The notes under the pieces: model-generated
What the model was told of the DNA's origin: nothing
Seen by the model: only the letters and a program-made list of their open reading frames with translations
Database searches by the model: none
From: Oscillospiraceae bacterium
Lineage (GTDB): Bacteria; Bacillota; Clostridia; Oscillospirales; Acutalibacteraceae
Direction of reading: 5' to 3'
Assembly: GCA_015066385.1 (NCBI GenBank)
Contig: SVOJ01000003.1
Location: forward strand, 1-64,000
Length of the DNA stretch: 64,000 bases
Shown here: one piece after another, positions 12,511-34,300 of the stretch
Layout of the letters: every line of letters starts with the position of its first letter
Numbering within the stretch: position 1 is the first letter of the stretch
Translations under genes and position numbers: made by a program

Positions 12511-13060
12511 TTATCCGGGAAAGTATTGATCACAACATTCCTTTAACTTTGCATTATACTTTGCACCGCTGAAGGGCGTAAAAATCAAAATATGGTTGGA
12601 AAAGGGAAAAAGTATAAAGTCATAAACAGCACCCGATTCCTCAAAAGCCTTTTTAACAGATTCGCCGTTTCCTATGGGCACGATGCTGTCTTTGCCGCCG
12701 TAAGCGAATAAGGAGGGGATTGAATTTCCGTTAACATAAGCAACGGGGGAAACAAGTTCAATCAGGTCCTTCTCTTTGCCTTCCTGTATGTATTGGTCGG
12801 AAATTTCCGTGCCTGCAAGCATTCGTGCAATTCCGGGACCCGCTTCTCCCCAGGCTTCCGTAGTGAAGTCGGAGGGGCCTGCCTTATTTGCGGCAAAAGC
12901 AAGGGGGATCGCGCTTTCGTCTGCTCGTGAATAGGAATAAAGCATAGACAGATGTGCACCGGCTGAGTAGCCCGAGGTTGCCATTTTTGTTATATTAAGA
13001 CCTTTCTCCTCAGAAAATCTTTTTATTTCTTCAATATAAAACTCACCTTGTATATGAAAC
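12511..13060 (-). pseudogene. 5'-truncated alpha/beta-hydrolase (esterase/lipase) remnant
   Basis: The frame encodes the C-terminal part of a serine hydrolase: nucleophile elbow GYSAGAH, catalytic Asp in YGGKDSIVP and His in PFSNHIL. It is in phase from about 13060 (residues GEFYIEEIKRFSEEKG...) with no start codon before the Met at 12984, which sits only three residues before the elbow. The oxyanion HGG region and first strands, about 100 residues in this family, are absent, and an in-frame stop lies at 13078-13080. The lost end coincides with the promoter of the divergent GH95 gene, so a rearrangement probably removed the N-terminal half. A 157-residue product from 12984 could not form the usual fold. 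The terminator survives at 12457-12490. Confidence 0.75.
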
Positions 13061-15444: not shown

Positions 15445-15555
15445 ACCGTTTTTTTGGTCAATTACAACACCGGAAAAACAATGCAACAACAGTAAAAACA
15501 AAAGCATGCATGGATCTACACGCCGCCATATTTTATCCGCAAGCATGGATTATGA

Positions 15556-16989
15556 TTATCTGAAGTGGATTCTACCGAAAATCAACAAGGCGGTCATCAT
15601 AAGCAGGTATGTAGGATATACGGTTGAAGAGCAGCCAAATGAAGCAATAAACTGACCAAGGGTTTTCGACTTTCGGCGATTTTCAATAACGAGTTTCGGG
15701 CGGAACATAAAGAACGCCTCAAACACAAGATAGCCGCAACAGTAGAATATCCATGTTTCCCAAAGCGTATACCCCCTTACAATCTGACCGACAAGGGCAG
15801 CAGCCCCCACAAGTATCAGGAAGATGCGGATAAATTTAATGCCCTTATAATCCCAGTAGCGCTCAAGTCCGTCGTGCTGTGCGATGACATAGTACATGGT
15901 AAAACAACAGATAATACTTGCCATGGTTGTTGAACCGAGCATAATAAGCGCAAGCGGACCTACCATGTAGCAGGGTCGTTCAAGCACTTCAACGATGTTC
16001 ATATCAACCTCGCCGAAAGCCTTTGTTATTTTATTGCCGTTTCTGCGATAAGGAATGATAAACAGAAAAATCGTCAGAATAATCAGAACGCAGAATATCC
16101 ATGAGAGAACGGTGTCAACATTCTGCGGAACGGGATGCCACAGTGCACCTGTCGATTCGGCAGCCGCGAGCTTTTCTTGTGCAAGCGGCCATGCAATTAC
16201 AAATGCCACGGAAATGCCGAAGCCCTGCGCAAGGCCCTGCACAAACTCCATCATTTTCCAACCGTCGATGACTTTAAGTTCATCAAGTTTCCCGAACATG
16301 CGCTTGCCGTTCTTGAGCGGGTGGCACTCTTTATCGTAAAGGGTTATGCCGATAACCCAGCCGATTGCGCCGAACAGGGCACCGCCAATCCACATGATAA
16401 TTGAAAAGATATCTCTGCGTATTGCCATCATCAATAGCAATTGGGCAACTATTACAACATTGCGGCCCCATTCCTCGCGACTGTCTTCTGAAAAACCGAT
16501 TTTCGGCATTCTGCCGTTTTCGGGGTCATAGGGGGTGTTGAAAACGCGGTAGCCGATTTCCTGCGATAAGGGTACGAGTGCAAAGAAAATAACAAAATCA
16601 TACCACTTGTAAACAACACCGCTCATAGCAGAAAAGCTGATACCTAAAAAAGCCGCGCCGAGACCGCCCCATATAGAGCCTTTAAAGGTAAGGGCAAGGT
16701 AACCCAGCGGCGGGTTATAGCGGGGTTTGTCGTGGTGAAGAATGAGGAACATGGTTGAGGCATATGGCTCCATGCCGCCGTAAAAATAACCGAGTGCGCA
16801 GGCGGCAGCAAACAGAAATGCATTTTCCATAAGAAGCGCAGAGCCCGTGTACCATACGCACATAATACCCATAAATGCACCGGGAAGCATAGCGCCTTTC
16901 TCTCCGCCGATTGCTGAGCCACGGATACCCCAGCCAAAACACATGGCGAGCATACTGAAAACAATGAACATAAAAGGACTTTCGGTCAT
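15556..16989 (-). CDS. Polytopic membrane protein, unknown family (copy 2)
   Basis: A 477-residue protein with about eleven hydrophobic segments and no family I recognise. It is closely related to the gene just upstream: long stretches such as GEVDMNIVEVLERPCYMVG, TMASIICCFTMYYVIAQ and GYTLWETWIFYC are nearly identical. The first helix carries a conserved FGWG--GSAIGGEKGAMLPG segment with polar and charged residues that could line a transport path. AAAGGAG lies 8 bases before the ATG. It is the last gene of the cluster that also holds two sialidase-fold proteins and a KdsB-like enzyme. A role in uptake of the cluster's substrate is an inference from position only. Confidence 0.75.
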   Translation of the reverse strand: MTESPFMFIVFSMLAMCFGWGIRGSAIGGEKGAMLPGAFMGIMCVWYTGSALLMENAFLFAAACALGYFYGGMEPYASTMFLILHHDKPRYNPPLGYLALTFKGSIWGGLGAAFLGISFSAMSGVVYKWYDFVIFFALVPLSQEIGYRVFNTPYDPENGRMPKIGFSEDSREEWGRNVVIVAQLLLMMAIRRDIFSIIMWIGGALFGAIGWVIGITLYDKECHPLKNGKRMFGKLDELKVIDGWKMMEFVQGLAQGFGISVAFVIAWPLAQEKLAAAESTGALWHPVPQNVDTVLSWIFCVLIILTIFLFIIPYRRNGNKITKAFGEVDMNIVEVLERPCYMVGPLALIMLGSTTMASIICCFTMYYVIAQHDGLERYWDYKGIKFIRIFLILVGAAALVGQIVRGYTLWETWIFYCCGYLVFEAFFMFRPKLVIENRRKSKTLGQFIASFGCSSTVYPTYLLMMTALLIFGRIHFR

Positions 16990-17022
16990 TATTACAACTC
17001 CTTTTCACTATTTTTATGAATT

Positions 17023-17053
17023 AAGCCGGTGCATCAGCTTGGATGACCGGCTT
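17023..17053 (-). other. Intercistronic stem-loop between the paired membrane genes
   Basis: Outer stem 17023-17030 with 17046-17053 and inner stem 17032-17035 with 17042-17045, lying just after the stop of the first membrane gene. On the minus strand no T-run follows, so it is unlikely to be a full terminator. It may stabilise the upstream message or tune expression of the second copy. Confidence 0.5.
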
Positions 17054-17064
17054 TGTTTTATTTT

Positions 17065-18501
17065 TTAACGGAAGTTTATATAACCGAAAACAAGCAGCCC
17101 GGCCATTAAAACATGGAAGAACGGAAGGACCGTGATATCGCCGCCGAAGGATACAAGAAACTCTTTGACGGATTTTGATTTTCTGTAGTTTTCGATGACT
17201 CTCTGGGGACGGTAGAAGTACGCAAGATCGAACAGAATATAACCGACACAGTAGAAAATCCATGTTTCCCAAAGGGTATAGCCTCTTATAATCTGACCGA
17301 CCAGAATAACAGCACCAAGCAGAATCAGGAATATGCGGATGAGTTTGATGCCTTTATAATCCCAATAACGCTCAAGACCGTCATGCTGTGCAATGACATA
17401 GTACATCGTGAAACAGCAAATAATGCTTGCCATGGTTGTTGAACCGAGCATAACAAGTGCAAGCGGACCTACCATATAGCAGGGGCGTTCAAGCACTTCG
17501 ACAATGTTCATATCAACTTCACCGAATGCACGGGTGATTTTGTTGCCGTTTCTGCGGTAGGGGATTATGAAAAGGAAGATAGTGAGAATGATCAGTGCGC
17601 AGAATACCCATGAAAGGGTAATATCAACCTTTTCGGGGAGCATATACCACAGTTTACCTGCGGCTTCTGCCTGCTCAAGATTTTTGGCGGCAAGAGGCCA
17701 ACCGAGAACAAACGCGGCACTGATGCCAAGTCCGTTAAAGCAGCCCTGTGTGAACTCCATGATTTTCCAACCGTCAATAATGTTAAGTTCATCCAACTTG
17801 CCGAAAAGCCGTTTGCCGTTTTTGAGCGGATGCATCTGCTTATCGTAGAATGTAATGGCAACGACCCAACCGATCGAGCCTGCAAGTGCGCCGCCGATCC
17901 ACATGAGAATACCGAAAATATCGCGGCGGATTGCCATAAGTATCAACAGACCTGCTACGATTACAATATTACGTCCCCATTCCTCACGGCTGTCCTTTGA
18001 AAAGCAGACCTTTGGCATTTTACCGTTTTCGGGGTCATAGGGTGTGTTGAAAATGTGATAGCCGATTTCCTGCACAAAGGGAACAAGTGCAAAGAAAATA
18101 ACGAAGTCGTACCATTTGTAAACAACACCGCTCATAGCGGAGAAACTGACACCTAAAAATCCCGCACCGAGACCGCTCCATATGGAGCCTTTGAATGCCA
18201 ATGCCAGATATCCCAACGGCGGACTGTAGCGCGGTGAATCATGGTCAAGGACAAGCCCCATTGTTGAGCCGTAGGGTTCCATACCGCCATAAAAGTAGCC
18301 GAGAGCGCAAGCGGCTGCAAATAAAAATACATTATCCATCAGAAGCTCTGAGCCTGTGTACCAGACACAGAGAATGCCCATGAAAGCACCGGGTAACATA
18401 GCGCCTTTTTCGCCGCCGATTGCCGAGCCGCGCATACCCCATCCAAAACACATGGTAATCATGCTGATTGCTAAAAATAAAAATATGTTTTGCGTTTCCA
18501 T
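17065..18501 (-). CDS. Polytopic membrane protein, unknown family (copy 1)
   Basis: A 478-residue protein with about eleven hydrophobic segments, paralogous over its full length to the downstream gene. The two share the first-helix segment CFGWGMRGSAIGGEKGAMLP and the glycine-rich block GYFYGGMEPYGSTM. Hydrophilic loops include the conserved FNTPYDPENGKMPK and HPLKNGKR-FGKLDELN. No ATP-binding, PTS or MFS signature is visible. The ATG at 18501 fits AAAGGG 8 bases upstream better than the TTG at 18507. It follows the second sialidase-fold gene by 26 bases and is clearly in the same operon. Two adjacent copies may form a heteromeric membrane unit or reflect recent duplication. Confidence 0.75.
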   Translation of the reverse strand: METQNIFLFLAISMITMCFGWGMRGSAIGGEKGAMLPGAFMGILCVWYTGSELLMDNVFLFAAACALGYFYGGMEPYGSTMGLVLDHDSPRYSPPLGYLALAFKGSIWSGLGAGFLGVSFSAMSGVVYKWYDFVIFFALVPFVQEIGYHIFNTPYDPENGKMPKVCFSKDSREEWGRNIVIVAGLLILMAIRRDIFGILMWIGGALAGSIGWVVAITFYDKQMHPLKNGKRLFGKLDELNIIDGWKIMEFTQGCFNGLGISAAFVLGWPLAAKNLEQAEAAGKLWYMLPEKVDITLSWVFCALIILTIFLFIIPYRRNGNKITRAFGEVDMNIVEVLERPCYMVGPLALVMLGSTTMASIICCFTMYYVIAQHDGLERYWDYKGIKLIRIFLILLGAVILVGQIIRGYTLWETWIFYCVGYILFDLAYFYRPQRVIENYRKSKSVKEFLVSFGGDITVLPFFHVLMAGLLVFGYINFR

Positions 18502-18527
18502 ATGCAAAGCCCTTTCTTAAACCTTGT

Positions 18528-19544
18528 TTATTTTTCGATACGAACCACAGCGTAGCCGATTTTTTTTCGTGCACAGGTATAGACCATGTGAAGAAGATTA
18601 CCCTGCGCAACAATGGACGGATATGAAAATTCTACACCGGGTTGCGTTTCAAGTTCAATGCGGACAGGGTATGTAGCACCGTTATCCTCCGAAAGGAACA
18701 GGCAAAGCGGGGTGCGGTCACCCCAGTTTTCGCTTACCGGGTTGCAGATCAGTCCTAAAACACCGCAATCGGTCATCGCAGCACCGATACCGCTGTTGTT
18801 GTTTGGCATATCGGTAGGTCTGGCAACAGACCAGGTGCGACCGAAGTCTTTTGATTCACTGCAATAAATCCAATTCAGATTCGTACGGGCAAGCATATAA
18901 ACTCTGCCGTCGTGAGCCTGATCTTCCCATACGGCAGGCTGAATCAGCCCCTCGCCATCCTTGGGAAGTTCCTCTTTGCGGTTGCAGATCGTGCCGTCGG
19001 GCAGTTCAAATGCAACGGGTGCAGAAAGTTTCCATGTTTTGCCGTTGTCTTCACTGTAGTCTGTCCATGACTCCCAACGGTCACACAGATCCTCAGTAGA
19101 ACCGGGGGCAAGAAGTGCACCGTTTGAAAGTCTTATCATCTGATTTTTAACGGGCCCTCTTCCGCCGATGTCACCGGGCACAAGCTCAGTGGGGGTTGAC
19201 CATGTCTTACCTCCGTCGGAAGAAACACTTTTCATTGAGTACCAATGGCCTTCGTCAATGCCGCTTTTATAAATCAGCGTCAGAACGCCGTCCTCAGCAA
19301 AAAGAGTCGGGTTCCAGTCTGCCTCGCCGTCGTCAGGCGTTACGGGAACGGGTGTGCTCCAAGTACCGTCACGTCGTGAAAACCATATGCGAACATTGGG
19401 ATTTTTTTCTTTTATACCGCCAAACCACGCTGCGGTGGGGCTGCCGTCGCAAATCGCAACCGTTGCGGCATGACATTCGCCGGTTTCTTCGTTAATTCCT
19501 TCGGTTTCTATGTATTCCTGATATAAAACCTCTGCCTTAATCAT
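18528..19544 (-). CDS. BNR-repeat sialidase-fold protein (exo-alpha-sialidase-like)
   Basis: This 338-residue six-bladed propeller-type protein resembles the BNR_2 group. Asp-box-like motifs are visible (SSDGGKTWS, SEDNGKTWK, SKDFGRTWS, SEDNGATYP). The conserved start GECHAATVAICDG--TAAWFGG and end FSYPSIVAQGNLLHMVYT are typical of this group. It lacks a signal peptide, unlike classic secreted sialidases. The first codon overlaps the stop of the upstream BNR gene (ATGA), so translation is coupled. Relatives include sialidases and other enzymes of acidic sugars. I cannot assign a catalytic triad with confidence, so the substrate is left open. Confidence 0.75.
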   Translation of the reverse strand: MIKAEVLYQEYIETEGINEETGECHAATVAICDGSPTAAWFGGIKEKNPNVRIWFSRRDGTWSTPVPVTPDDGEADWNPTLFAEDGVLTLIYKSGIDEGHWYSMKSVSSDGGKTWSTPTELVPGDIGGRGPVKNQMIRLSNGALLAPGSTEDLCDRWESWTDYSEDNGKTWKLSAPVAFELPDGTICNRKEELPKDGEGLIQPAVWEDQAHDGRVYMLARTNLNWIYCSESKDFGRTWSVARPTDMPNNNSGIGAAMTDCGVLGLICNPVSENWGDRTPLCLFLSEDNGATYPVRIELETQPGVEFSYPSIVAQGNLLHMVYTCARKKIGYAVVRIEK

Positions 19545-20584
19545 TTGTTAAACTCTCCTAAATCCGAAATTACGGTGTCCGCTACAAAACGGGGGGCTTC
19601 CTCACCGAGATTATAGTAATAAAGAATATGTACCTCGTTATTAAATACAGCTATACGGGGATAACCGATGTCTGTGTTGACCGCATCCGTACGCAGTGCC
19701 TGCGGTTCACTCCAGAGTTTACCGTCACGTGTGGTTGTAATGAAAAGTCCGCAAGGAGCCTGCCTGCGAAAGAATGCAAGCATTACCGTTCCGTCGGGCA
19801 ACGAACACAGGGCTGGCGGGCTGCCTCCGCTCATATCTTCATCAATGTATGCAAGTTTCGTTTCGTAGACCCAGGTTTTTCCTTCATCATTGCTCAGATA
19901 CACATCAAGTTGTGTGAATCCGGGTTCATTTTCACTGGCATAACGTGCAATTCCGAGCAGCGAACCGTCAGGAAGTCTTGCAAGAGCAGGCATAATTCGA
20001 AAATCGCCCTTGGGCGGGTCTTCGCCCATCATGCCCAGTTTTTCCCATTTACCGTCAAAAGTAAGTTTTGCGGCAAAAGCATTACCTTCGTAGCCGTCAG
20101 CCTTTACGCCTGTCATGGCAAGAAGAAAATAACCGTCACAGACAAGATAATCGGTTCTTGCACTGACACCGACAAGACCAAAATCGGGAATATAGAACGG
20201 ACCTTCCCAGTTTTTGCCTCCGTCGTTAGTAACTAAAAACTGTGTGAATACATTGCCGTCCCATCCCGAAGGCATCAGATACAGTGCGCTTTCAGCAGAG
20301 AGCAGGTCTGCAGGTACATCGGGAAGACATTTCGTGTTTTCATAGTCAATTGCAGGAATTTCGGGAAATTCGTGTACCCATCCTGTTTCAGAACGAAATC
20401 TTGCAAACATCCGCAAGGTAGGGATGGTTCTGTCAAGTGCATGAACACCCGGTCCGTTGTAGTGATGGATACCCTTTTCAAAACCCACAAGCAGTTCGTC
20501 ATTGAATTTCCATATACCGTGATTGGCAGGCCAACCGTAAAAACTCGGCTTATCAAAAGCAACGATATCATGTTTGATTTTCAT
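19541..20584 (-). CDS. BNR-repeat sialidase-fold protein, first of a pair
   Basis: This 347-residue protein has three Asp-box motifs (TNDGGKNW, SNDEGKTW, TTRDGKLW) and a propeller-like pattern, with no signal peptide. It shares the fold but little sequence with the following gene. The segment RTIPTLRMFARF near residue 50 could stand in for the Arg-rich N-terminal sialidase motif, but this is uncertain. The ATG at 20584 has AAAAGG nine bases upstream; the frame is open to 20626, inside the preceding terminator. It is separated from kdsB by that stem-loop, so expression relative to kdsB may be reduced by partial termination. Possible role: cleavage or binding of a sialic- or ulosonic-acid glycan. 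Confidence 0.72.
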   Translation of the reverse strand: MKIKHDIVAFDKPSFYGWPANHGIWKFNDELLVGFEKGIHHYNGPGVHALDRTIPTLRMFARFRSETGWVHEFPEIPAIDYENTKCLPDVPADLLSAESALYLMPSGWDGNVFTQFLVTNDGGKNWEGPFYIPDFGLVGVSARTDYLVCDGYFLLAMTGVKADGYEGNAFAAKLTFDGKWEKLGMMGEDPPKGDFRIMPALARLPDGSLLGIARYASENEPGFTQLDVYLSNDEGKTWVYETKLAYIDEDMSGGSPPALCSLPDGTVMLAFFRRQAPCGLFITTTRDGKLWSEPQALRTDAVNTDIGYPRIAVFNNEVHILYYYNLGEEAPRFVADTVISDLGEFNK

Positions 20585-20615
20585 ATCCGTAAACCTTTTC
20601 TGATATTTTAATTGA

Positions 20616-20652
20616 AAAAGCCCCACTTAAAACGGAAGTATTGCAAGTGGGG
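20616..20652 (-). terminator. Terminator or attenuator after kdsB
   Basis: An 8-bp GC-rich stem (20621-20628 with 20645-20652) with a 16-base loop, followed on the minus strand by CTTTTTC. It lies inside the gene cluster, so it probably lowers rather than abolishes read-through into the BNR genes. Confidence 0.65.
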
Positions 20653-20665
20653 ACTTGCTTAAAAC

Positions 20666-21415
20666 TCAGCAGCCATGCAATTCTTTGTAAATGCGGATGA
20701 CCTCCTGCAGGTCTTCTTCTGTGTCCACACTGACGGCTTTATAATGTGCCGGTGCGGGAACGATTTTGATTTTGTAGCCGTGTTCAAGTACTTTGAGCTG
20801 TTCAAGAGACTCAGCCTCGGAAAGCGGCGTGGGGGCGAGTTTTGTATATTGATTGAGGAATTCATGCGTATAAGCATAAATGCCGATGTGTTCAAAATAT
20901 CTTGCATGTTCTGCATGACGGGGATACGGAATGGGAGAACGGGAGAAATAAATTGCATTGCCGTTGACATCGCTGACGACCTTGACAACGGTGTTGTTGA
21001 GCACATATTCTTCATCACCCGTGATTTCCAGACTGCCTGTTGCCATGACACAATCGGGGCTGTTGATCAGCGCAGAACTGATATCGTCAATAATTTCAGG
21101 GGGAACGAGAGGTTCGTCACCCTGAATATTGATAACATAGTCGCAATCATAATGGCTTGCTGCTTCTGCAACACGGTCAGAGCCCGTGGGATGATTAACG
21201 CTTGTCATAACTGCTTCGCCGCCGAATGCAATAACTGCATCATAAACTCGCTGATCATCTGTTGCAACAACAACCTTGCTGAGAATCTTTGATTTACTTG
21301 CATTTTCATAAACATGCTGAATCATCGGTTTGCCGCAGATATCTTTAAGGGGCTTGCCGGGAAGACGGGAAGAGCCGTAACGGGCGGGAATAACACCTAA
21401 AACTTTAGCACTCAT
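20666..21415 (-). CDS. kdsB: 3-deoxy-manno-octulosonate cytidylyltransferase (CMP-Kdo synthetase)
   Basis: KdsB activates Kdo with CTP to give CMP-Kdo. The 249-residue protein carries the signature set: GVIPARYGSSRLPGKPL at the N-terminus, VVVATDD, HPTGSDRVAEAA, VINIQGDEPLVPP and the Kdo-specific AIYFSRSPIPYPR, ending SVDTEEDL. This fits KdsB better than the related CMP-sialate synthetase NeuA. AAAAGGAG lies upstream of the ATG, 25 bases after the previous gene. A Kdo-activating enzyme is unexpected in a Gram-positive-type cell without lipopolysaccharide. No kdsA, kdsC, kdsD or Kdo transferase is in the window. It may activate a salvaged or capsular acid sugar. Confidence 0.88.
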   Translation of the reverse strand: MSAKVLGVIPARYGSSRLPGKPLKDICGKPMIQHVYENASKSKILSKVVVATDDQRVYDAVIAFGGEAVMTSVNHPTGSDRVAEAASHYDCDYVINIQGDEPLVPPEIIDDISSALINSPDCVMATGSLEITGDEEYVLNNTVVKVVSDVNGNAIYFSRSPIPYPRHAEHARYFEHIGIYAYTHEFLNQYTKLAPTPLSEAESLEQLKVLEHGYKIKIVPAPAHYKAVSVDTEEDLQEVIRIYKELHGC

Positions 21416-21439
21416 TATATAAAACTCCTTTTCTTAAAC

Positions 21440-22651
21440 TCAAAAACTGTATTTGTCGCGCAGCGCATTGCGCATTTTATTAAGAGAGAACGGCTTGATT
21501 TCGTCGCAAATGCGCTCACGCATTGCCTTGCCTTCTTCCGTATTTTGCGGTGCACTCGTGAAGTCGAGCGTTACGCCGAGTTCCTTGCAGATGCGGTCGA
21601 TAAAAATCGGCCAAAGTTCGCCGATATCACCGATAACGGGAATGCTGTTTTCGAGACGTGTAAATGCGGACATTTCCATACGGAAAGGGATTTTGGTAAG
21701 TTTGGTTTTTGGAAGCCCTTCATTGATTGCTTTCTGAATAATTTCGCTCTGTTTGTTGAGATCCCACGAACGCTTGAGATTTTCGTCAAGGTCAAAGCGG
21801 ATGAGAGTTTTGTCCTTGAGGCTGTAGGTGGGCAGACCGTTCATTGAAGCCCAAATGCCGTGACCGGTATATGTTTCAAAAGGACCGTCGTGGATTTCCT
21901 GCGTAAGCGCAACTGCAGATTCAATAATAACATCTGCTTCAGAAAGCATTTTTGCAATACGCTTGCATCGCTGACTTACGGGAATACTGTCAGAGATACA
22001 AAGACCGACCTGGCCGCCGCCGATAAGCTGAGGAACACTGACAAGGACAGGTACACCCTTAATTGCGCCTGCGCCAATCATTGTATTCGGATCCGCTCCG
22101 AGACCTGCAACGTACTCGAAGCTTTCGCCGAGTGTCTGCGCCGCAACCATAACCTCAGTAGAAACAGTTTCGTTAAAGTAGCCAACGGGGTAAGCCATAT
22201 TTCCTGCTGCTTTAATGATAACTTTGCCCTCTGCCTTTTCACAGATGGAAACCAATTCTTCATCAAGCGGAAGCTCTGAACGAATTCGTGCCCATTCTTC
22301 TTCGCTGAGTTGTGTAAGTTCATAGATATTACCGCGGCAACGGATGTTTTCCGGACATTTGTCGCCGAGAATATCCGCATCAAAACGCTTGACTCTGTCA
22401 AGAGTGCCGCCCATTTCGTGAGATATAACGGCAGAACTTGTTGTTACGCCGTCAATAAGACCTGCGTGAATGAGAGCAGCAATAAGCGTTGTAACACCCT
22501 CGTGAAGATTCGGGCCGCTTCCTATAACAGCCGCAACTTTGCCGCCGCGCTTTTTTACTTCTATAACCTTTTCAATCGCAGTGTTTAAAAATTCCTTTGT
22601 TTCATCAGGGAGTGCCTGATAAAGCTGTTCAACCAAAGCAGGTGATGCCAT
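21440..22651 (-). CDS. Conserved protein of unknown function, possible NAD-binding fold
   Basis: This 403-residue soluble protein matches no family I can name with certainty. Glycine-rich segments suggest a nucleotide-binding fold: AAVIGSGPNLHEGVTTLIAA near residue 45, AGLGADPNTMIGAGA and PQLIGGGQVGL. The N-terminal block, followed by HAGLIDGVTTSSAV-SHEMGG, weakly recalls deoxyhypusine-synthase-like proteins, but I would not assign that activity. The ATG at 22651 is preceded by AGGAG at 8 bases; an in-frame TTG at 22657 is too close to it. It lies 25 bases before kdsB and is co-transcribed with it. A role in handling the same acid sugar is inferred from position only. Confidence 0.7.
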   Translation of the reverse strand: MASPALVEQLYQALPDETKEFLNTAIEKVIEVKKRGGKVAAVIGSGPNLHEGVTTLIAALIHAGLIDGVTTSSAVISHEMGGTLDRVKRFDADILGDKCPENIRCRGNIYELTQLSEEEWARIRSELPLDEELVSICEKAEGKVIIKAAGNMAYPVGYFNETVSTEVMVAAQTLGESFEYVAGLGADPNTMIGAGAIKGVPVLVSVPQLIGGGQVGLCISDSIPVSQRCKRIAKMLSEADVIIESAVALTQEIHDGPFETYTGHGIWASMNGLPTYSLKDKTLIRFDLDENLKRSWDLNKQSEIIQKAINEGLPKTKLTKIPFRMEMSAFTRLENSIPVIGDIGELWPIFIDRICKELGVTLDFTSAPQNTEEGKAMRERICDEIKPFSLNKMRNALRDKYSF

Positions 22652-22713
22652 AATCAAATCTCCTGTTCTTAATTATTCAACAAATTTTTTGCTTAACTCT
22701 TTTTGATAAAAAT

Positions 22714-23274
22714 TCACTTGATTTTTTTGCCGAAGCAAGCATCATCATGATCAAGTGATAAAAGTGTGAAATCATATTTTTTGTAGAAGTTTACTGCTCT
22801 TTCGTTTCTCGGACCGCAGGTCAGGCAGACGCCACAGACCCCTTTTTTTGCCAAATGGTCACACATAGTGTCAATGAGTTTACCGCCCAGCCCCATTCTC
22901 TGATATTCGGGAAGAATATTTATATGAAAATGTGCAGGATATTCTTCCTTGAATTTTTCGGGGACATTGTATGCGGTCGATGCCCACTCGTATCTGTCAT
23001 CGCCGTAACTGTCCGAGCGTGGAAGATATTCACTGTCGAAAATCTTCTTAAATCTGTCAAAATTTTCTGCACAGATTATATAACCTACCACTCTGTCGTC
23101 ATCTTCGAGAACAAAGCAGTTTTCAGGCTCGTGTTCGATGTAATAATTACAAAACGTGTTATGGTAAAACTGTCCCGTTAAATAATTCGGCACTTCCTCG
23201 GGCCCCTCGCTGTTATCGCAGACAAAATGCATATCAGCACGGTCCTTTTCTTCATACTTTCTGATAAATATCAT
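22714..23274 (-). CDS. GNAT-family N-acetyltransferase
   Basis: This 186-residue protein shows the acetyl-CoA-binding motif HINILPEYQRMGLGGKLID (the Q-x-x-G-x-G/A loop) followed by LTCGPRNERAVNFYKKYDF, the usual GNAT C-terminal pattern. An N-terminal insertion (LPRSDSYGDDRYEWAS) is unusual. The acceptor is unknown; being first in the kdsB/BNR cluster, an amino-sugar acceptor is possible. No terminator is visible in the 62 bases before the next gene. The ribosome site (GGTGAG) is weak. Confidence 0.8.
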   Translation of the reverse strand: MIFIRKYEEKDRADMHFVCDNSEGPEEVPNYLTGQFYHNTFCNYYIEHEPENCFVLEDDDRVVGYIICAENFDRFKKIFDSEYLPRSDSYGDDRYEWASTAYNVPEKFKEEYPAHFHINILPEYQRMGLGGKLIDTMCDHLAKKGVCGVCLTCGPRNERAVNFYKKYDFTLLSLDHDDACFGKKIK

Positions 23275-23346: not shown

Positions 23347-23375
23347 TTGAATTTTTTTTGAAATAGATGTATAGT
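23347..23375 (+). promoter_or_regulatory. Promoter of the ceramidase-like pair
   Basis: TTGAAT (23347-23352), a 17-base spacer and TATAGT (23370-23375), 30 bases before the start codon. Confidence 0.6.
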
Positions 23376-23405
23376 AAAGATATACAGTTTTCAGGAGGGT
23401 TGAAT

Positions 23406-24884
23406 ATGAGTTTTAAGGACAATTTAACAAAAAAAGCGGTAAATGTCCTGATAAATTCCATCCTTTCAACTATGCCGAAAGGATGCTTCACAACGCAGGA
23501 AAGTTCGGATAAATTTATGCTGTCCGGTAATGACAGCTTTTCATATATTCCGGGTGAAAAATGGACCTGCGGCTTTGGCAAGGCATCATTTACCCCTGCC
23601 GACTACAACAGCAAAACATATTATATTGCCGGCTATGATTCGAATAACCCCGTAAAGGGAGTTCTTGATGACCTGTATGCAAGAGCAGTTTATCTTGACG
23701 ACAACAGAGGTGACGGCGGTGTGATTTTCTGTTCACTTGATTGCGTGGGCATGAGCAGAAAGGACATAAACGACATAAGAAAAATTGCTCTTGAAAGCGG
23801 CAGACTCGGCAAAATCAAATCATTGAATATTGCTTCGACTCATACACACGCGGGAATTGATACCCAGGGTCTTTGGGGCGAAAAAATTTACAAAAGCGGC
23901 AAAGATAAAGTTTTTATGGAAAATCTTAAAAAATCTGCGGCGCAGGCTGTCATTACAGCTTTTGAAAACAGAAAAGACGGCAGGCTTTTTATGGGTTACT
24001 CCGTTGTTGAGGATATGCAGGCAGATGTCAGAACACCCGTAACCTACGACAAGAACCTGACAAGATTCCGCTTTTCACCCGACGACAAATCAGGCGATAT
24101 TTATATAGTGAATTTTGCTTCTCACGCAGAGTTACTCGGAACAACATCGGTTATCAGCGCCGATTTTCCTGCATACCTAATCAGAGAAATTGAAGAACGC
24201 ATACCCGGCTCAGATGCCGTGTTCTTCAACGGGGCCATAGGAGGTATGATTTCCGCTAAAGAAATAAAAAAGGTTTACAGGGATTCCATTGACTGCGAAG
24301 CATATATGAAAGGCTTCGGAAAGCAATTGGGAGAAATAGCTCTTTCCGTTAATAACGAAACGGAATTAAATCCTGTCCTTAACATAAAATCCAGGGGTAT
24401 TGCCGTTCCCGGTGACAACACGGTGCTGATTCTTGCAAGATATCTTAAGGTGCTTAATAATGATATCGGCAGAACAGAAAAGAGAAACAAGGTGTGCATT
24501 TATTCCGAAGTGGGATATATGGAATTGGGCGATAAGGATGTTGCCGTCTTCCTGGTGCCCGGCGAGCTCTTTCCCGAACTTTATAACGGAGATTTTCTTA
24601 CGGAAAAAGACAGTGCAAACCACACAACGGCAAACTATCGGAAGGTGCTTGCCGATATGACAGAATGCAGGCACAAATTCGTTATCGGTCTTTGTAACGA
24701 CGAACTTGGCTACATTCTTGCAGAAAACGATTTCCTGCTGAACGAAACGCTGCCTTACATCAATGAGGCTACCGATGATATGGACAGAGACCACTATGAG
24801 GAAACAAACTCAACCGGTCCCGAAACAGGGAAAATTATTCTTGATGAAACAGAAAGCCTGATTAAATCGGCTTATAATTGCTAA
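23406..24884 (+). CDS. Neutral-ceramidase-like zinc hydrolase, cytoplasmic form
   Basis: This 492-residue protein resembles the neutral/alkaline ceramidase N-terminal domain family. Four expected active-site elements are visible in order: the zinc-His segment IASTHTHAG (about residue 145), a second His in NFASHAELL (about 239), the zinc Glu in LVPGELFPE (about 387) and a conserved Tyr in CNDELGYIL (about 435). The second paralogue follows after 30 bases. There is no signal peptide. The ATG at 23406 is preceded by AGGAGGG; the ATG at 23367 lies within the promoter. Family members hydrolyse ceramides, but many bacterial relatives are uncharacterised, so an N-acyl or other amide substrate is also possible. 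Confidence 0.78.
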   Translation: MSFKDNLTKKAVNVLINSILSTMPKGCFTTQESSDKFMLSGNDSFSYIPGEKWTCGFGKASFTPADYNSKTYYIAGYDSNNPVKGVLDDLYARAVYLDDNRGDGGVIFCSLDCVGMSRKDINDIRKIALESGRLGKIKSLNIASTHTHAGIDTQGLWGEKIYKSGKDKVFMENLKKSAAQAVITAFENRKDGRLFMGYSVVEDMQADVRTPVTYDKNLTRFRFSPDDKSGDIYIVNFASHAELLGTTSVISADFPAYLIREIEERIPGSDAVFFNGAIGGMISAKEIKKVYRDSIDCEAYMKGFGKQLGEIALSVNNETELNPVLNIKSRGIAVPGDNTVLILARYLKVLNNDIGRTEKRNKVCIYSEVGYMELGDKDVAVFLVPGELFPELYNGDFLTEKDSANHTTANYRKVLADMTECRHKFVIGLCNDELGYILAENDFLLNETLPYINEATDDMDRDHYEETNSTGPETGKIILDETESLIKSAYNC

Positions 24885-24914
24885 ACCAACAATATAATAA
24901 GGAGATGTAAAAAA

Positions 24915-26657
24915 ATGAAAAAACTTTCCCGCTCTTTTATCGCGATTCTTCTTGTGTTTACCATTCTGTTTTCTGCAAATTCAACAATGGCATTTGCAAT
25001 CAGCGAGCAGAGATGCAATCCCATTTACACTGTCTCAAACGTATTCGGAGGTATTATTGATGGCTTAATCAAATTATTAGGGGTGTTAACGCCTACACCT
25101 GACTACCCGACGGTTGAGGAATATTTTGCGGCGGACAGTGCAAATTTCTATGAAGGAACAGAAATTTTTATTGACAGTGCTGTCGCCGGTGCAAAATGGT
25201 CGCTTGGCTTCGGCAAGGAAAGTATTGTTCCCAACAATCTTCGTGACGGAAGTAAGAAATACTATACCGGCGGATACTTTACGCAAAAGGTAAATGGTGT
25301 TTTTGATGATCAAAGAGCTATTGCGATTGCACTTAACGACGGTTCAGGCAGAGGTACAACAATTTTTGCTTCAATTGACGGCATCGGCGTTGCCAATGCG
25401 GATGTCCGTGCTGTAAGAAGTGCTGTTGTGCAAAAACTCAAAGCAAACGGCATTGACAGCGATATCAATGCTATCAACATAAACGCAACTCATTGTCATA
25501 CAGTTATTGACACCCAGGGTATAGGACTTGACCTGCTGCCGAAAATTTTCCGCAGTTTCTTCGGCGGTGCAAAAAGGTCAATGGATACCGAGTTCCTTGA
25601 TGTTATGATTGACCGCACCTCCGACGCAATTGTTGAGGCATATACTAATATGGAAACGGGCAAACTTTTTTATTTTGAAACCGCAGGTATTGGCAAAGAC
25701 GAAGAAAACGGCTTATATCTTGAAGATGAATATCCGTATCTCGTCAATAAGAGATATTATACCGAAGGCTATCAGCATGTGTTTGCCTGCTTCAAGTTCG
25801 TTCCTGACAACGAAGCATCTGCAGCAACAGTCTTTACAAATATAGGTGCACATCCTACAGTTGTTGATGAATCAACAACTCTGCTTTCCGCAGACTTCCC
25901 CGCCTTTATGGAAGAAAAAATCAACGGCGCAGGTATGAATTTTATGTTTATTCAGGGTGCACAGGCTCCTGTTTCCGTCAACAAATGGGCTGATATGCCG
26001 GAAGTGATTAACAATGAGGTTGATACGAAAATTGCCGTAAATCCTGTTGCGGAAGATTATAAAACAGCAATACTTCTCGGTTACGAGTACGCAAGGCTTG
26101 TGCTTGAAGCGCAGAATAACGCAAAAGAAATTGAACCCATACTCAATGTAAAGATGACTGAATATACAGTCAGACTAGAAACAGGTCTTTTTGGTTACGG
26201 TGCAACAGAAGGCTTTATAGGCACAACAACAGTAAAGGATTCTGACAGCAAAACCGGCTATTCCATTGTTACGGAGGCAGGTTACATAGAAATAGGAAAA
26301 GATATTGTTTTGCTTACTGCACCGGGTGAAATCGTTCCTCAGCTTATCTACGGTAATGCTGTTTCGGCAGAAGACTCGTATCGCGGCACAGAATGGACCT
26401 ATGAAGCAACTGCAAGTCTTGTTCCCGAAGAAAAAACAGTGCTTGTAATGGGACTTTGTAACGATGCTATAGGCTATATTCTTCCGGATAATGACTACGC
26501 ACACTTTATTACAGACATGATTTGGGACGCTGACGGTGCCGATAAACTTTACGGCCCCTACCACAGACATTATGAAGAAATGCTTTCAGCCGGCAGTTCA
26601 TCCGGATCCGTAACCGTTTCTATCCTGAATGAACTCGTGAAAAGCGAAAACCCCTGA
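24915..26657 (+). CDS. Neutral-ceramidase-like zinc hydrolase, secreted form
   Basis: This 580-residue paralogue of the preceding gene has a signal peptide (positive start, hydrophobic core FIAILLVFTILF, cleavage near MAFA), then a short linker before the catalytic domain. Active-site elements match: NATHCHTVID (about residue 191), NIGAHPTVV (about 310), TAPGEIVPQ (about 469) and CNDAIGYIL (about 518). AAGGAGATG precedes the ATG. A strong terminator follows at 26669-26709. A secreted and a cytoplasmic copy in one operon suggest extracellular attack on a substrate and further handling of the imported product. No cell-wall anchor is visible. Confidence 0.78.
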   Translation: MKKLSRSFIAILLVFTILFSANSTMAFAISEQRCNPIYTVSNVFGGIIDGLIKLLGVLTPTPDYPTVEEYFAADSANFYEGTEIFIDSAVAGAKWSLGFGKESIVPNNLRDGSKKYYTGGYFTQKVNGVFDDQRAIAIALNDGSGRGTTIFASIDGIGVANADVRAVRSAVVQKLKANGIDSDINAININATHCHTVIDTQGIGLDLLPKIFRSFFGGAKRSMDTEFLDVMIDRTSDAIVEAYTNMETGKLFYFETAGIGKDEENGLYLEDEYPYLVNKRYYTEGYQHVFACFKFVPDNEASAATVFTNIGAHPTVVDESTTLLSADFPAFMEEKINGAGMNFMFIQGAQAPVSVNKWADMPEVINNEVDTKIAVNPVAEDYKTAILLGYEYARLVLEAQNNAKEIEPILNVKMTEYTVRLETGLFGYGATEGFIGTTTVKDSDSKTGYSIVTEAGYIEIGKDIVLLTAPGEIVPQLIYGNAVSAEDSYRGTEWTYEATASLVPEEKTVLVMGLCNDAIGYILPDNDYAHFITDMIWDADGADKLYGPYHRHYEEMLSAGSSSGSVTVSILNELVKSENP

Positions 26658-26732: not shown

Positions 26733-28840
26733 ATGACAAAAGAAACAGCCAGACAAAAAGCCAAAGAGCTTGTTGCAAAAATGACGGTTGAAGAAAAACT
26801 TTCACAGCTGTTATATAATGCTCCCGCGATAGAGAGGCTTGGTATAGAAGAATACAATTGGTGGAACGAAAGTTCTCACGGTATTCACGGTGCTGGTACG
26901 GCTACTGTGTTTCCTCATGCTATCGCAATGGCTTCGACCTTTGACCCTGTGCTTGTGGGAAAGGTTGCCGATGCGGTTTCAACGGAAGGAAGAGCAAAGT
27001 ATAACAAGCATATAAAATACGGCGACCATGATATTTTTAAGGGAATTACTTTTTGGGCACCCAATATCAACATTTTTCGTGACCCCCGTTGGGGCAGAGG
27101 TCAGGAAACCTTCGGTGAAGATCCGTTTCTCACCTCGATGCTTGCTGTTTCCTATATCAACGGAATTCAGGCAACGGCGAATTCCTTAAAGCGGCTGCTT
27201 GCTCAAAGCATTTTGCCGCTCATTCGGGTCCTGAAAAAAACAGACACGGATTTAATGCCGTTGTTGATAAGCACGACCTTTTTGAAACATATCTCCCTGC
27301 ATTTGAAAAAACCGTTAAAGCCGGTGTTTCGGGAGTTATGGGTGCATATAACCGCTTAAACGGCGAGCCTTGTTGCTCTCATTCATATCTTATCCCGCAG
27401 ATACTCCGTAAAGACTGGAATTTTGATGGTTATGTTGTTTCTGACTGCGGTGCACTCAAAGATATTTATAAATTTCACCAATTTGTTGAAACAAGAGCCC
27501 AAGCCGCTGCTGTTGCTTTAAAAAGCACCTGCGACCTTAACTGCGGCGATACCTATGATGCCCTTGTTGATGCATATGAGCAGGATTTAATAAGCGAAGA
27601 TGATATCACTGTTGCTGCAGAAAATCTTTTTGCAATCCGTTACCGTCTGGGTGAATTTGAAGAAACAAGACCGTATTCCGATATCGGATACGATATGATT
27701 GACAGCAAGGAGCATAAGGAACTCAACCTGAAAACAGCAGAGCAATGTATTATTCTACTTGAAAATAAGGATAATTTTCTTCCTCTTGACAAAAACACAA
27801 ACAAAAGAATTGCGGTTGTAGGACCCAACTCTCTTGCCGTTACTGCTCTTGAGGGCAACTACAACGGCTATGCTTCCGAATACGTAACTGTTGCAGACGG
27901 TATCAGAAGAGTGTTTGGCAATGCTGAAATCAGCGTTGAAAAGGGCTGTAATTATTGTGATGAATATCTGAATCATTGGAGCGGCTTTCAAAACATGATA
28001 AGTGACGGTATTGCAGCCGCCGCCGAAGCAGATATCACAATTCTTGCACTCGGTCTTGACCGAACGATCGAAGGTGAGGATACGGGCTTCAATGATGATT
28101 ACACGGCCAGTGGAGATAAACGTTCACTTTGTCTTCCGGCAACGCAACAAAAACTTGCAGAGGCAGTTTGCGATGTGTGTGATAACGTTATTGTTGTTCT
28201 TCTGTGCGGAAGTTCGATTGACATTGACGAAAAGGTAAGAAGCCACGCAAAGGCTGTTTTGCAGGCATGGTATCCCGGTTCACTCGGCGGTCTTGCGCTT
28301 GCAAATATTCTTGCAGGCGATGTAAATCCATCGGCAAAACTTCCTGTTACGATTTATAAGGGAAATCACGATATGCCTGATTTTGAAGACTACGACATGA
28401 AGGGCAGAACCTACAGATATATTAACGGCGATGCTCTTTATCCGTTCGGCTTTGGGCTTTCATATACAAGTTACAAGTATAACAAAGCAAAGGTTGTTGC
28501 GGAAGATGCTGAAAAAATAATCGTCAGCACAGAGGTTGAAAATGCAGGCGATATTGCGGGCAAAGAAATCGTTCAGGTTTATGCCGCATATACCGACAGC
28601 CGTGTTGCAACTCCTCATTGGCAACTTTGCTCACTCAAACCCGTTCTCCTTGAAGCCGGCAAAAAGGAAGTGGTATCTCTCGATATCGACCGCTACTGGG
28701 TCAAAGCTGTTACTACGGACGGCAGAAGAGTTGACCCCGACGGGGAGATTGTTTTCTACATCGGTGGTCATCAGCCTGATGCCGTGAGCACCCGCTTGCT
28801 GGGGTATTCATGCCTTAAAATCGAGCTGCAAAAGGGGTAA
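26733..28840 (+). pseudogene. GH3 beta-glucosidase/beta-xylosidase split by a one-base frameshift
   Basis: Two overlapping frames (26733-27359 and 27338-28840) together encode a complete GH3 enzyme. The first holds the N-terminus (WWNESSHGIHGAGTATVFP, DPRWGRGQETFGEDP). The second holds the nucleophile Asp in VVSDCGALKD, the second domain and FGFGLSYTSYKY. Between them the second frame continues as EFLKAAACSKHFAAHSGPEK, exactly what the family has after YINGIQG. One missing G at about 27170-27171 (GG where GGG is expected) explains the break, and restoring it gives a single 702-residue frame. AGGAGG precedes the ATG. It is either a real inactivating mutation or an assembly error. If intact, it would act on beta-glucosides or xylosides in the cytoplasm, upstream of GH42. 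Confidence 0.85.
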
Positions 28841-31121: not shown

Positions 31122-31159
31122 GAGCTTTTTTTGTAACAACGAAAAAAAATTATAAAGAG

Positions 31160-31206
31160 TGAATTCCCAAAGTAAATTCCACTGTGGAATTTACTTTGGG
31201 AATTCA
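31160..31206. repeat. Perfect 23-bp inverted repeat upstream of the giant gene
   Basis: Arms 31160-31182 and 31184-31206 are exact reverse complements around one central base, including two GAATTC sites at the ends. No T-tract follows on either strand, so it is not a standard terminator. It lies between the divergent tRNA promoter and the promoter of the giant protein. Possible roles: operator, cruciform-forming element or trace of a small mobile repeat. Confidence 0.85.
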
Positions 31207-31242
31207 CGAAAATGTTTTAACTTGGTTTTGTGTTTAACATTA

Positions 31243-31271
31243 TTGACAAAATATTTGGAAGGTGTTAGAAT
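31243..31271 (+). promoter_or_regulatory. Strong SigA promoter of the giant GLUG protein
   Basis: Consensus TTGACA (31243-31248), a 17-base spacer and TAGAAT (31266-31271) with an extended TGT. The start codon is 35 bases downstream. Confidence 0.8.
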
Positions 31272-31305
31272 ATTTTATATATTTCTTACAGGAGGTATGG
31301 TTGTT

Positions 31306-34300
31306 ATGCAAAAAAACTATAAGTCCGCAAAAAAAATAATCAGTCTGTTTTTGTCAATGTTGATGATTATTTCATGCTGCAGTGCCGCTGTCCCCGGGCT
31401 GGCTGTGTTTGCACTTGCATGGGACGGCGCAACAAGTACGCAACCGTCAGCCATTGATGGCGTGTATCAGATCGGTACTGCAGAAGAACTTGCCTGGTTT
31501 GCCGCACAGGTCAATGCGGGGAATACTGCGTACAATGCCTTATTGACGGCAGATATTGATTTGTCGGGGCAGGTCTGGACTCCGATCGGAAATGATTCCA
31601 AACGCTATGCAGGTACATTTGACGGTAATAATTTTACTGTTTCAAATGTATATATCACAACAACTTCCGTAGACAGAGGTTTGTTCGGCAAAACGGCCAA
31701 TGCAACCATCCGCAATCTGAATCTTGATACGGTTCGCATTATGACCGCCCGCAACTATACAGGTACCGTTGTCGGTGTTATCAACGGCGGTGCGGTTGAA
31801 AACTGCCATGTTACGGGTGTGTATCTTGCAACATCCAACGGCTATCTCGGAGGCCTGATCGGACAGGTGGAGGGCACTTCGCCTGTTGTCAGAAACTGTA
31901 CCGTCAGTGGTACAAACGATTATGCAACCATCAGCGGCAAGGAGTTTGCCGGTGGTCTTATCGGTCGTGTTACCGTGACGACAACCATTGAAAACTGTCA
32001 TACATACGATCTTACTGTCAGCGGTACGGGTTCTGTCGGTGGTCTGATCGGCCGAACCACGACCACATGTACAATATCGGATTGTTCAGCCAATCGAAAT
32101 AATCTTATTGCTACTGCCGCATACTCCGGCGGTTTTGCAGGCTTGTTGACAGGCGGAACGGTTGATAATTGTAATGTAAATGAAGTCACTCTCAGCGGTA
32201 CTTCATATGTTGGCGGTTTTGTCGGTTATGCATATGATAAAGCAATATCCTATTCCGATTGTCATGTGACAAAGGCGGATCTGACCGCAAGCAGTACCTA
32301 TGAAGGTGGTTTTGTCGGCGGATTGAATGTTGCCAATACTTTTTATAATTGTTCCGTAACCGATGCAGACCTCAAAGGTTCTTCTACTTATCGCGGCGGA
32401 TTTGCAGGTTATGCAAATGCCAAAATGACAGCCGAAAACTGCTTTGTAAAAGATATCAGCATCATCGGAACGCAGTATAACGGCGGTTTTTCGGGTCTTA
32501 TCACAGGCGGCTCGTCTGTAACAAAATGTGGTGTTGAAAATCTTACAATGCAGACCGACAATACCTATAACGGTGGGTTTGTCGGAAATCTCACAGGTTC
32601 TGCCAATACATTGCAGTATAACTATGTTGTCAATGCAAGCATCGACGGCAGTAATAAATCATACCTCGGCGGTTTTATCGGTTATTCACAGAGCAATGCC
32701 CATAAAGTGCGTGAAAATTATCTGCAACTTACTTCGTTTGGCGGTACTGCCACCTACACGGGGGCTTTTGTCGGCAGAATCGCAACGGGCTTTTTTGCTG
32801 ATAACTTTGTAACAACGGTTGATGCATTGCCTATGGTCGGCAGCGCAACTGCAGGTGTTGCAGGCGCTGAAACAGGTATTACAGCCATCACGCAAACTGA
32901 TGTTGCAGACGGAGCGCTTTGTGCAACGCTTAACGGCATTACAAATGTGTGGGAACAGTCTGCTGACGGATATCCGACGGTTGGCGAAAATGCAACCGCC
33001 CCCGAACTTTCCGACGGCTATTACCTTATTTATAATGGTTATCAGCTTGAATGGTTTATGAAGCAGGTCAATGGTGGTAATCTGACCATCAATGCAAAAC
33101 TGATGGCTGATATTGATTTGCACAACAAGGATTGGACACCTATCGGCAGTGATGCAAAACAATACAACGGTATTTTTGACGGCAATGGCTTTACGGTCAG
33201 TAATATTTATATCACCGTTACGGGTGTCGAACGCGGATTTTTCGGCAAAACAAATGCAAATGCGGTTATTAAGAATCTGAATCTGCAGAATGTCAGTGTG
33301 ACGGGAAACAATGATTACAGCGGATCGCTCATTGGTGTTGTCAATGGCTCGGATATTGAAAACTGTCACGTTGTTGGTGTTTATCTCAATACCGGCAAAG
33401 CACATGCAGGTGCATTTATCGGTCGTATCAGCGGAACCGCACCGACGGTCAAAAATTGTTCGGTCAAGGGTACGGAAACCATGCATTCCGTCAGCGGTAC
33501 TCAGTATCTCGGCGCCTTTGTCGGTTATATGAATACGGCTGTGAAGATTTCGGACTGTTATGCTGAAAATGTTGAAGTGACTGCTTCCAATTCTTCTTCC
33601 TATATCGGCGGATTCTTCGGTTCTTCCACGGAATCTTCCAGCATTTACGAAAATTGTCATGTCAAAGATGTTGTTCTCAACGGTGTCAACTACATTGGCG
33701 GTTTTAGTTATGCTTTCTGCAAAACTTCCACAATCAATAAATCTTCCGTTGTCAATGTTACGATCAATTCCACATCTACATCAGCAGAAGCCCGACTCGG
33801 CGGTTTCTTCGGCAATGTCGGTTGGGAAGGGATCAACATGATCACTTACTGCTATGCGGTCGGTGTCACGATCAATGCTCCGTCTGCAGGTCAGGTCGGT
33901 GGTTTTGCAGGTTATACCAACAACAAAGTGCACGTTTTTACTGAATGTTATGCACAGGTTGATTTGATCAACAGCACCAATAAAAATGTCGGTATGTTCG
34001 TCGGTCAGCGTGCAACGGGTACCTTCAATGATTGCTTTGTAACTGACAGTGACACCTATCCGCTTGTCGGCAGCGGCACGGCATTTGTGGCAGGCACGCA
34101 AACAGGTATTTCCGCTGTGACAAATGAAGAAATCTTTACCGGTGCTCTGACTGATAAACTCAATGATGTCACCGAAATCTGGCAACAGCATAATGATGAT
34201 TTCACGGCAGGCTGGCCCGAACTCGGCAATGCCGAAGCGCCTGCATTGAATGCGGACGGGTTCTATGAAATTTACAACTCCTTCCAGCTCCGTTGGTTCA

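Follow-up and report, generated by a model that had tools for sequence, protein, structure and literature searches.

The seven-gene array and its conservation

We analysed a 64-kb stretch of DNA (the window) from the genome of an Oscillospiraceae bacterium (the host; 3.17 Mb, 97.38% complete), in which seven minus-strand open reading frames (ORFs) lie at 15556-23274 (Table 1). In the order of transcription they encode a GNAT-family protein, a 405-aa protein that we named unk405, a KdsB-type enzyme, the BNR proteins BNR-B and BNR-A, and the membrane proteins mem2 and mem1. An earlier note on this DNA had described seven co-directional genes with one ATGA overlap. All of them were found on the minus strand, and the overlap is present in the sequence at 19544-19541, between BNR-B and BNR-A. 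Its naming of a GNAT, a KdsB and two BNR proteins was supported in each case by Pfam/NCBIfam. Aligned orthologues suggest that BNR-B starts near 20584, though its ORF runs to 20626. Nonsynonymous divergence (dN) was far below synonymous divergence (dS) for all seven genes (three comparisons each; dS was saturated in four of the 21). All seven are under purifying selection, and none is therefore a chance ORF.

Table 1. Position and basis of the features of the array and its flanks in the window
Feature	Position	Strand	Basis and remarks
GNAT-family N-acetyltransferase, 186 aa	22714..23274	-	First gene of unit 1; Pfam PF00583, 5.5e-14
unk405, uncharacterised; probably an NAD-binding member of the deoxyhypusine synthase/ArgZ superfamily	21440..22657	-	Weak profile and structure matches; kdsB adjoins
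KdsB-type CMP-ulosonate synthetase (CMP-Kdo synthetase family)	20666..21415	-	TIGR00466, 8e-67
Conserved terminator-like hairpin between the units, then CTTTTTC	20621..20652	-	Sequence, shuffle test, both-sides changes
BNR-B, sialidase-superfamily propeller protein, optional member	19541..20584 (ORF to 20626)	-	PF13088
BNR-A, BNR_2-family sialidase-superfamily protein	18528..19544	-	PF13088, 7.5e-63
mem2, polytopic membrane protein of an unnamed family	17065..18507	-	No Pfam/NCBIfam family over cut-off
mem1, second copy of the membrane family of mem2	15556..16989	-	76% identical to mem2
Terminator-like hairpin 3' of mem1	15503..15524	-	Consensus scan only; the longer-loop rule gave no report
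Ceramidase_alk-like protein, no hydrophobic N-terminus, divergent neighbour	23367..24884	+	PF04734, 30.7 bits, just below the cut-off of 32.1
Second Ceramidase_alk-like protein, hydrophobic N-terminal segment	24915..26657	+	PF04734, 28.2 bits, below the cut-off

A contig search with the mem pair as query yielded 31 loci, in which mem is therefore present by construction; many of them are near relatives and not independent events. All 31 are titled Oscillospiraceae or Clostridia metagenome assemblies, and the named sources are goat, sheep, cattle and deer gut. The unk405 gene was detected in 26 of the 31. In every one of these 26 loci kdsB adjoins unk405 on the same strand, with 15-36 nt between the matched ends, and BNR-A lies on the strand of mem, while GNAT is present in 23. 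BNR-B was found in 11 of the 31 loci, and at least two mem copies occur in eight; L005 retains only a 27-residue match to BNR-B. Because kdsB, unk405 and BNR-A stay together in 26/26 loci, chance clustering is very unlikely. The earlier note had made its interpretation depend on conserved linkage in related genomes, and this is what was observed for kdsB and BNR-A in all unk405 loci. Activation of ulosonic acids by KdsB is already known as a kind of reaction. For this gene set no description was found in the open-licence literature searched; the note, too, had named no described system of this kind.

Among 150 genomes drawn evenly from the family of the host, unk405 occurred in four, and mem copies above 900 bits occurred in the same four. 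The three besides the host (G802, G814 and G817) were judged to be the same assemblies as loci L028, L017 and L023. Nine further genomes of the draw carried distant mem paralogues only, so that nine of the 13 mem-positive genomes are without unk405. At wider range unk405 was present in 2/291 genomes of the class and, the host included, in 5/398 genomes of the phylum. KdsB exceeded its cut-off in three of 148 class genomes, namely the host, G011 and G034. In the first two of these, unk405 is adjacent to KdsB or separated from it by one gene; in G034, KdsB pairs with a different partner and not with unk405. Spread by plasmids or viruses was considered and rejected, since no relative of unk405 or mem was found in the plasmid collection or the viral contigs searched.

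The spacer between kdsB and BNR-B contains an inverted repeat, CCCCACTT/AAGTGGGG, upstream of the CTTTTTC run. A consensus terminator scan with a loop limit of 8 bases did not list this hairpin. Under a rule allowing longer loops, it was detected in 18 of 23 orthologous spacers vs 7 of 920 shuffled spacers, which keep dinucleotides only approximately. The 23 spacers are from the 26 unk405 loci; the divergent loci L006, L009 and L029 have no such spacer. In the alignment of the 18 positive spacers and the window, eight of the 11 predicted pairs had changes on both sides, a count which excludes the five hairpin-negative spacers (L005, L015, L020, L024 and L026) and in which related sequences repeat the same changes. 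These compensatory changes support a conserved terminator-like hairpin, a putative terminator between the units. In L006, L009 and L029, kdsB-unk405 and BNR-A-mem are divergent. The hairpin and this arrangement together point to two units, GNAT-unk405-kdsB (unit 1) and BNR-B-BNR-A-mem2-mem1 (unit 2), and the array is probably transcribed as two units instead of as one uninterrupted transcript. A single seven-gene operon is countered by the hairpin, which might also act as a leaky terminator or an mRNA processing stem. The earlier note had treated the array as one cluster; its conserved gene set holds, but the hairpin splits it in two. The divergent loci also carry an IclR-family regulator between BNR-A and mem2 (L006:7727, L029:6201 and L009:3012), assigned by Pfam in L006 and by shared cluster in the other two.

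KdsB and its partner unk405

The KdsB of the array scored 225.1 bits with TIGR00466 (cut-off 155.2) and 222.2 with the other equivalog model, NF003948, below its cut-off of 281. Its best solved relative is 1gq9 (7.3e-61), and the alignment to solved KdsBs spans nearly the whole chain. We assign the product to the KdsB family as a full-length member, with CTP-dependent activation of Kdo (3-deoxy-D-manno-octulosonic acid) as its predicted reaction. KdsB is chiefly known from bacteria that have an outer membrane, and the Kdo pathway runs in the order KdsD-KdsA-KdsC-KdsB-WaaA. The host (G000) gave no match to KdsA (TIGR01362) or to NeuB (PF03102) at E <= 0.001. The canonical pathway, with KdsA and WaaA in one genome, was thus not found in the host, nor was nonulosonate (sialic acid) synthesis by a NeuB-family synthase. 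A salvage or non-canonical route fits a host in which KdsA, NeuB and WaaA were all undetected.

In a tree of ten KdsBs, those linked to unk405 (four of the window type, G011 and G624) formed one group with support 83/84. The pair from lipopolysaccharide (LPS) loci, G502/G478, branched apart (93/91), as did the HMGL-linked pair G034/G104 (100/99). The loci of the latter pair (L075:4327-6851 and L076:10091-12449) hold a divergent KdsB-like gene and an HMGL-like aldolase gene, identified by eye, in a polysaccharide-type locus. They were rejected as relatives of the array: the partner is another aldolase-like gene (by eye), unk405 was not seen, and the KdsBs branch apart. These HMGL-paired genes are another KdsB setting in Clostridia.

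The unk405 protein reaches no family cut-off in Pfam/NCBIfam. Over the N-terminal ~80 aa, four members match GSU2086, TIGR00300 (ornithine cyclodeaminase) and deoxyhypusine synthase models. The best matches were those of the member from G502 (L082), with 6.6e-7 for GSU2086, 5.5e-6 for TIGR00300 and 7.9e-7 for the deoxyhypusine synthase model dhys, all far below the curated cut-offs; the window unk405 reached only 0.1 with dhys. A Foldseek search with the AlphaFold2 model, which is poor, returned AgrE, ArgZ and several deoxyhypusine synthases among the first 15 rows (E 0.025-0.1) and Sir2 also, with no row at E <= 0.001. The C-terminal part has invariant motifs of its own (HDGPFE, GLPKTKL and PFRMEMS). 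Enzymes of the deoxyhypusine synthase superfamily are NAD-dependent and act without net redox change. The nearest named relative of the N-terminal part is GSU2086, which an excerpt of PMC5585712 places between hldE and gmhA in Geobacter and describes as hypothetical, in an operon for sugar biosynthesis. Judged by profiles and model, unk405 looks like a distant NAD-binding enzyme of this superfamily. From the profile and Foldseek hints, the GSU2086 context and the superfamily chemistry, we infer that it may carry out an NAD-dependent reaction whose substrate is an ulosonic acid, either free or as the CMP derivative.

Outside the 31 loci, unk405 was found in several other settings. In G011 (60% identical) the order is a polysaccharide-deacetylase-type gene, a subtilase, unk405, DUF386/YhcH, KdsB, a DHDPS-family gene, FG-GAP and the start of a BNR_2 gene. 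In G624, whose unk405 contains a masked run, it is KdsB, an ABC sugar transporter (permeases identified by eye), a DHDPS-family gene, BNR_2, unk405 and a xylose-isomerase-like gene. A Kdo-transferase gene, waaA2 (PF04413, 2e-51), directly precedes unk405 in G502 (52% identical), whose canonical waaA, kdsB and kdsA are grouped on a separate contig (C55). This pair suggests that the same chemistry may alter LPS-type sugars. In G478 the contig begins within unk405 and a second waaA stops close to the end of a contig, so G478 may hold the same pair. In G671 unk405 is also cut by the contig start and is followed by lpxC and lptB on the same 13.5-kb contig.

Five DHDPS-family genes were found in the host, of which one is 47% identical to the G011 cluster protein and 47-64% identical to the aldolases of G011, G778 and G681 taken together; the others are 24-28% identical to the G011 protein, among them a gene overlapped by another ORF (27-28%). 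On host contig C11, at ~87-90 kb and 23 kb past the end of the window, a trio of aldolase, Gfo/Idh oxidoreductase and divergent GNAT genes occurs without an adjacent mem. In this trio (L149:7269-9839; C11 ~87.3-89.8 kb) the DHDPS-family protein has CQSSE at a place where the usual motif is of the GTTGE type. Genes 59-63% identical to the G681 aldolase are also present in G802, G814 and G817.

BNR proteins, the mem family and neighbouring genes

Parts of the BNR-A propeller align with sialidases. The glutamate of the NanI motif TECQVVE, which we take to be the catalytic residue of GH33 sialidases, aligns to Gln202 of BNR-A, and this glutamine is invariant in ten sequences, a 31% relative among them. 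Arg220 aligned to an arginine of NanI. By eye only, the N-terminal arginine site reads Cys24-His25, and R277 and Y308 are kept. GH33 sialidase activity of BNR-A is not supported, as glutamine occupies the glutamate position, and there is no good ground for naming the BNR proteins sialidases. BNR-B matched PF13088 at 35 bits (1.3e-8; cut-off 31.4), and its nearest solved chain is 5hx0, the uncharacterised Dfer_1899 (8e-17). A simple hydropathy scan found no hydrophobic segment in BNR-A or BNR-B, therefore both look cytosolic. The BNR proteins may act on acidic sugars.

With 76% identity, mem1 and mem2 are duplicates and not members of different families. The earlier note had listed two novel membrane proteins; neither reached a Pfam/NCBIfam family cut-off, and they belong to one family. 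The AlphaFold2 model of mem2 is confident (pLDDT 81.7, pTM 0.88) and nearly all helical. Foldseek against 350,542 PDB chains gave 214 matches, none with E <= 0.001, and TM-scores of at most 0.21 among the 50 matches listed, a weak or missing match being no proof of a new fold. Compared with known transporter families by sequence family or solved fold, mem was placed in none. Among 19 divergent members 26 residues are invariant, including R26, E33, K106, K248 and E251 (mem2 numbering), and all share the motif W-x2-RG-x3-G-x-E-x2-A-x-LPG. An internal repeat was looked for in mem and none was found.

A third mem copy of the host (29%) lies on contig C47 beside a PLP (pyridoxal phosphate) decarboxylase and near a DUF4838 protein. 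Distant mem paralogues were studied on 12 stretches (L109-L119 and L044). A Gfo/Idh-cluster gene lies within two genes in four of them, a GNAT directly beside mem in two (relatives of the array's GNAT, 41% and 37%, in L113 and L115), a DHDPS-family aldolase within three genes in two, and a ceramidase-like gene within three in one; seven of the 12 have none of these. These neighbourhoods and the C11 trio weakly support a sugar-acid role for the wider mem family.

The two ceramidase-like genes next to the array recur in 20/26 (23367..24884) and 21/26 (24915..26657) unk405 loci. A second pair, 31-54% identical to the window pair at 23367-26657, occurs near murQ and a second GNAT at L005:18140-21082 and L023:15284-18126. 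Since GNAT and ceramidase-like genes recur together in these two loci, they may form a separate module. Elsewhere in the window, a GH3 glycosidase gene at 26733-28840 (+) falls into two ORFs of 208 and 500 aa that overlap in different frames, owing to either a natural frameshift or an assembly error. A 157-aa ORF at 12511-12984 (-) matches the BD-FAE esterase profile at positions 92-213 of 215 only and looks like a truncated gene remnant. The 5409-aa ORF at 31159-47388 (+), most of it repeats with many G-G-F-x-G motifs, has by eye a hydrophobic stretch close to the N-terminus and encodes a giant surface-type protein.

Possible roles and comparison with known systems

We tentatively favour, at somewhat less than an even chance, the reading of the array as an ulosonic-acid (Kdo-like) module of two co-inherited units, in which unit 1 would make CMP-ulosonic acid without KdsA or NeuB and unit 2 would supply the material. 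BNR-A, the optional BNR-B and the mem copies would import an acid-sugar conjugate and process it in the cytosol, mem perhaps as transporter and BNR by cleavage. The unk405 enzyme would supply the ulosonic acid or remodel it, an epimerisation or isomerisation with transient oxidation being one example; KdsB would couple the acid to CMP, and GNAT could add an acetyl group. The CMP-sugar would then go to a surface acceptor. This last step and the first, uptake and processing of the conjugate, are the weakest, and the nature of the substrate is likewise conjectural. The reading draws on the adjacency of unk405 and kdsB in all 26 unk405 loci, the lack of KdsA, WaaA and NeuB matches in the host, the co-occurrence of unk405 with close mem copies in the same four family genomes, the clusters of G011 and G624, the waaA2-unk405 pair of G502, the hints of NAD binding in unk405 (from profiles and, weakly, from structure) and the operon of GSU2086. 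The earlier note had proposed import, hydrolysis and activation of an acid glycoside. Of this, the linkage and an acid-sugar context (DHDPS, YhcH/DUF386, sugar ABC transporter and waaA2 neighbours) stand, whereas import by mem and surface use of the product remain conjectural and a sialidase identity of the BNR proteins is not supported.

Several observations weigh against a module of this kind. The enzyme functions of the set are deduced from sequence and models, and the unk405 model is of low quality (pLDDT 47.1, pTM 0.52), with an unrelated rhodopsin-Gi complex as its top Foldseek row (3.9e-3) and many rows being G-alpha. The 20-kb locus L022 has BNR-A and mem beside a sulfatase without unk405 or kdsB, and in L030-L033, stretches of 6-18 kb, mem is the only part of the array present. 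None of the 12 stretches with distant mem paralogues matched unk405, KdsB or BNR, and no mem match was obtained on the contigs read of G011 (8.7 kb) and G624 (9.1 kb). In G671, whose unk405 is cut by a contig end, neither KdsB nor WaaA gave a match and no KdsA exceeded its cut-off, which counts against a fixed dependence. The host gave no WaaA match (PF04413, E <= 0.001; other CMP-sugar transferase families were not searched), and so no user of the CMP-sugar was found in it, WaaA alone having been searched.

A catabolic module is the strongest rival, though a rather unlikely one. Here the imported conjugate would be cleaved by BNR and split by a DHDPS-family aldolase encoded elsewhere, with KdsB and unk405 as a side branch or recruited for degradation. 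The DHDPS-family proteins inside the G011 and G624 clusters agree with this, and so does the host aldolase related to those of G011, G778 and G681, which stands beside Gfo/Idh and GNAT on C11. A similar set occurs near the distant mem paralogues (Gfo/Idh-type in 4/12, aldolase in 2/12, GNAT in 2/12), yet in eight of those 12 loci no Gfo/Idh or aldolase gene occurs within a distance of three genes. The window cluster itself contains no aldolase, unk405 adjoins a Kdo transferase in G502, and CMP activation, at the price of a high-energy bond, has no obvious role in a degradative pathway.

It is quite unlikely that the array serves de novo synthesis and export, with unk405 taking part in a new route from central metabolites to an ulosonic acid, KdsB activating it, mem acting as transferase or flippase for a surface polymer and BNR trimming the product. 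Ulosonic-acid wall polymers are known in some Gram-positives, KdsA and NeuB are unmatched in the host although KdsB is conserved, and the waaA2-unk405 pair of G502 would suit such a route, as would the invariant charged residues of mem and its lack of a solved counterpart by Foldseek. The BNR proteins look cytosolic, however, and mem-family genes are also spread through genomes that lack unk405 (9/13 mem-positive family genomes). Two unrelated co-travelling units, unit 1 making a CMP-sugar acid and unit 2 handling another plant or host glycan, would account for the conserved hairpin, the divergent loci L006, L009 and L029 and BNR-A-mem alone beside the sulfatase of L022, but this is improbable, as both units persist together in all 26 unk405 loci even when rearranged (the loci having been found with a mem query) and the unk405 clusters of G011 and G624 each include a BNR_2 gene.

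The ulosonic-acid module can be extended to a wider proposal, which is unlikely as a whole. Monoderm gut Clostridia would have a third route to CMP-ulosonates independent of KdsA and NeuB, an NAD-dependent enzyme of the deoxyhypusine synthase superfamily would feed KdsB, mem would have a fold so far absent from solved structures and would move acidic sugars, and in diderm Firmicutes the same enzyme would feed a second surface sugar, one dependent on WaaA.

Few Clostridia have KdsB (one sample, as counted above), and here it is tightly paired with one uncharacterised enzyme. This pairing in a genome without detected KdsA, NeuB or WaaA offers a testable hypothesis, namely that activated ulosonic acids are made or salvaged in a way not yet recorded, which extends to a surface sugar in hindgut bacteria. 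The mem family adds a confident model lacking a Foldseek counterpart among solved structures, and the gene set is kept across many related genomes in gut bacteria of plant-eating animals.

Compared with the Kdo pathway, the kdsB of the array likewise encodes a full-length member that scores above the curated cut-off, with 1gq9 as its nearest PDB entry. It differs in that its partner is unk405, in a host without KdsA or WaaA matches, and in that its KdsB groups with the unk405-linked KdsBs and apart from those of the LPS loci. With GH33 sialidases and sialic acid salvage the array shares the BNR_2 propeller family and an arginine (Arg220) aligned to that of NanI. It departs from them by Gln202 at the glutamate site, Cys-His at the N-terminal arginine (by eye), the absence of a hydrophobic signal segment from BNR-A and a host without NeuB match. 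The N-terminus of unk405 has an NAD-binding-like stretch as in the deoxyhypusine synthase, ArgZ-AgrE and GSU2086 superfamily, whereas its scores are far below the cut-offs and its C-terminal part has separate motifs. The LPS gene cluster of diderm Firmicutes is given in an excerpt of PMC5007114 as lpxACDIBK/waaM/waaA/kdsABCD. Unlike the cluster so described, the host has no KdsA or WaaA match, and the unk405-waaA2 pair of G502 lies off the contig of the canonical locus; as in it, unk405 stands beside a waaA-type gene in G502 and shares a contig with lpxC and lptB in G671.

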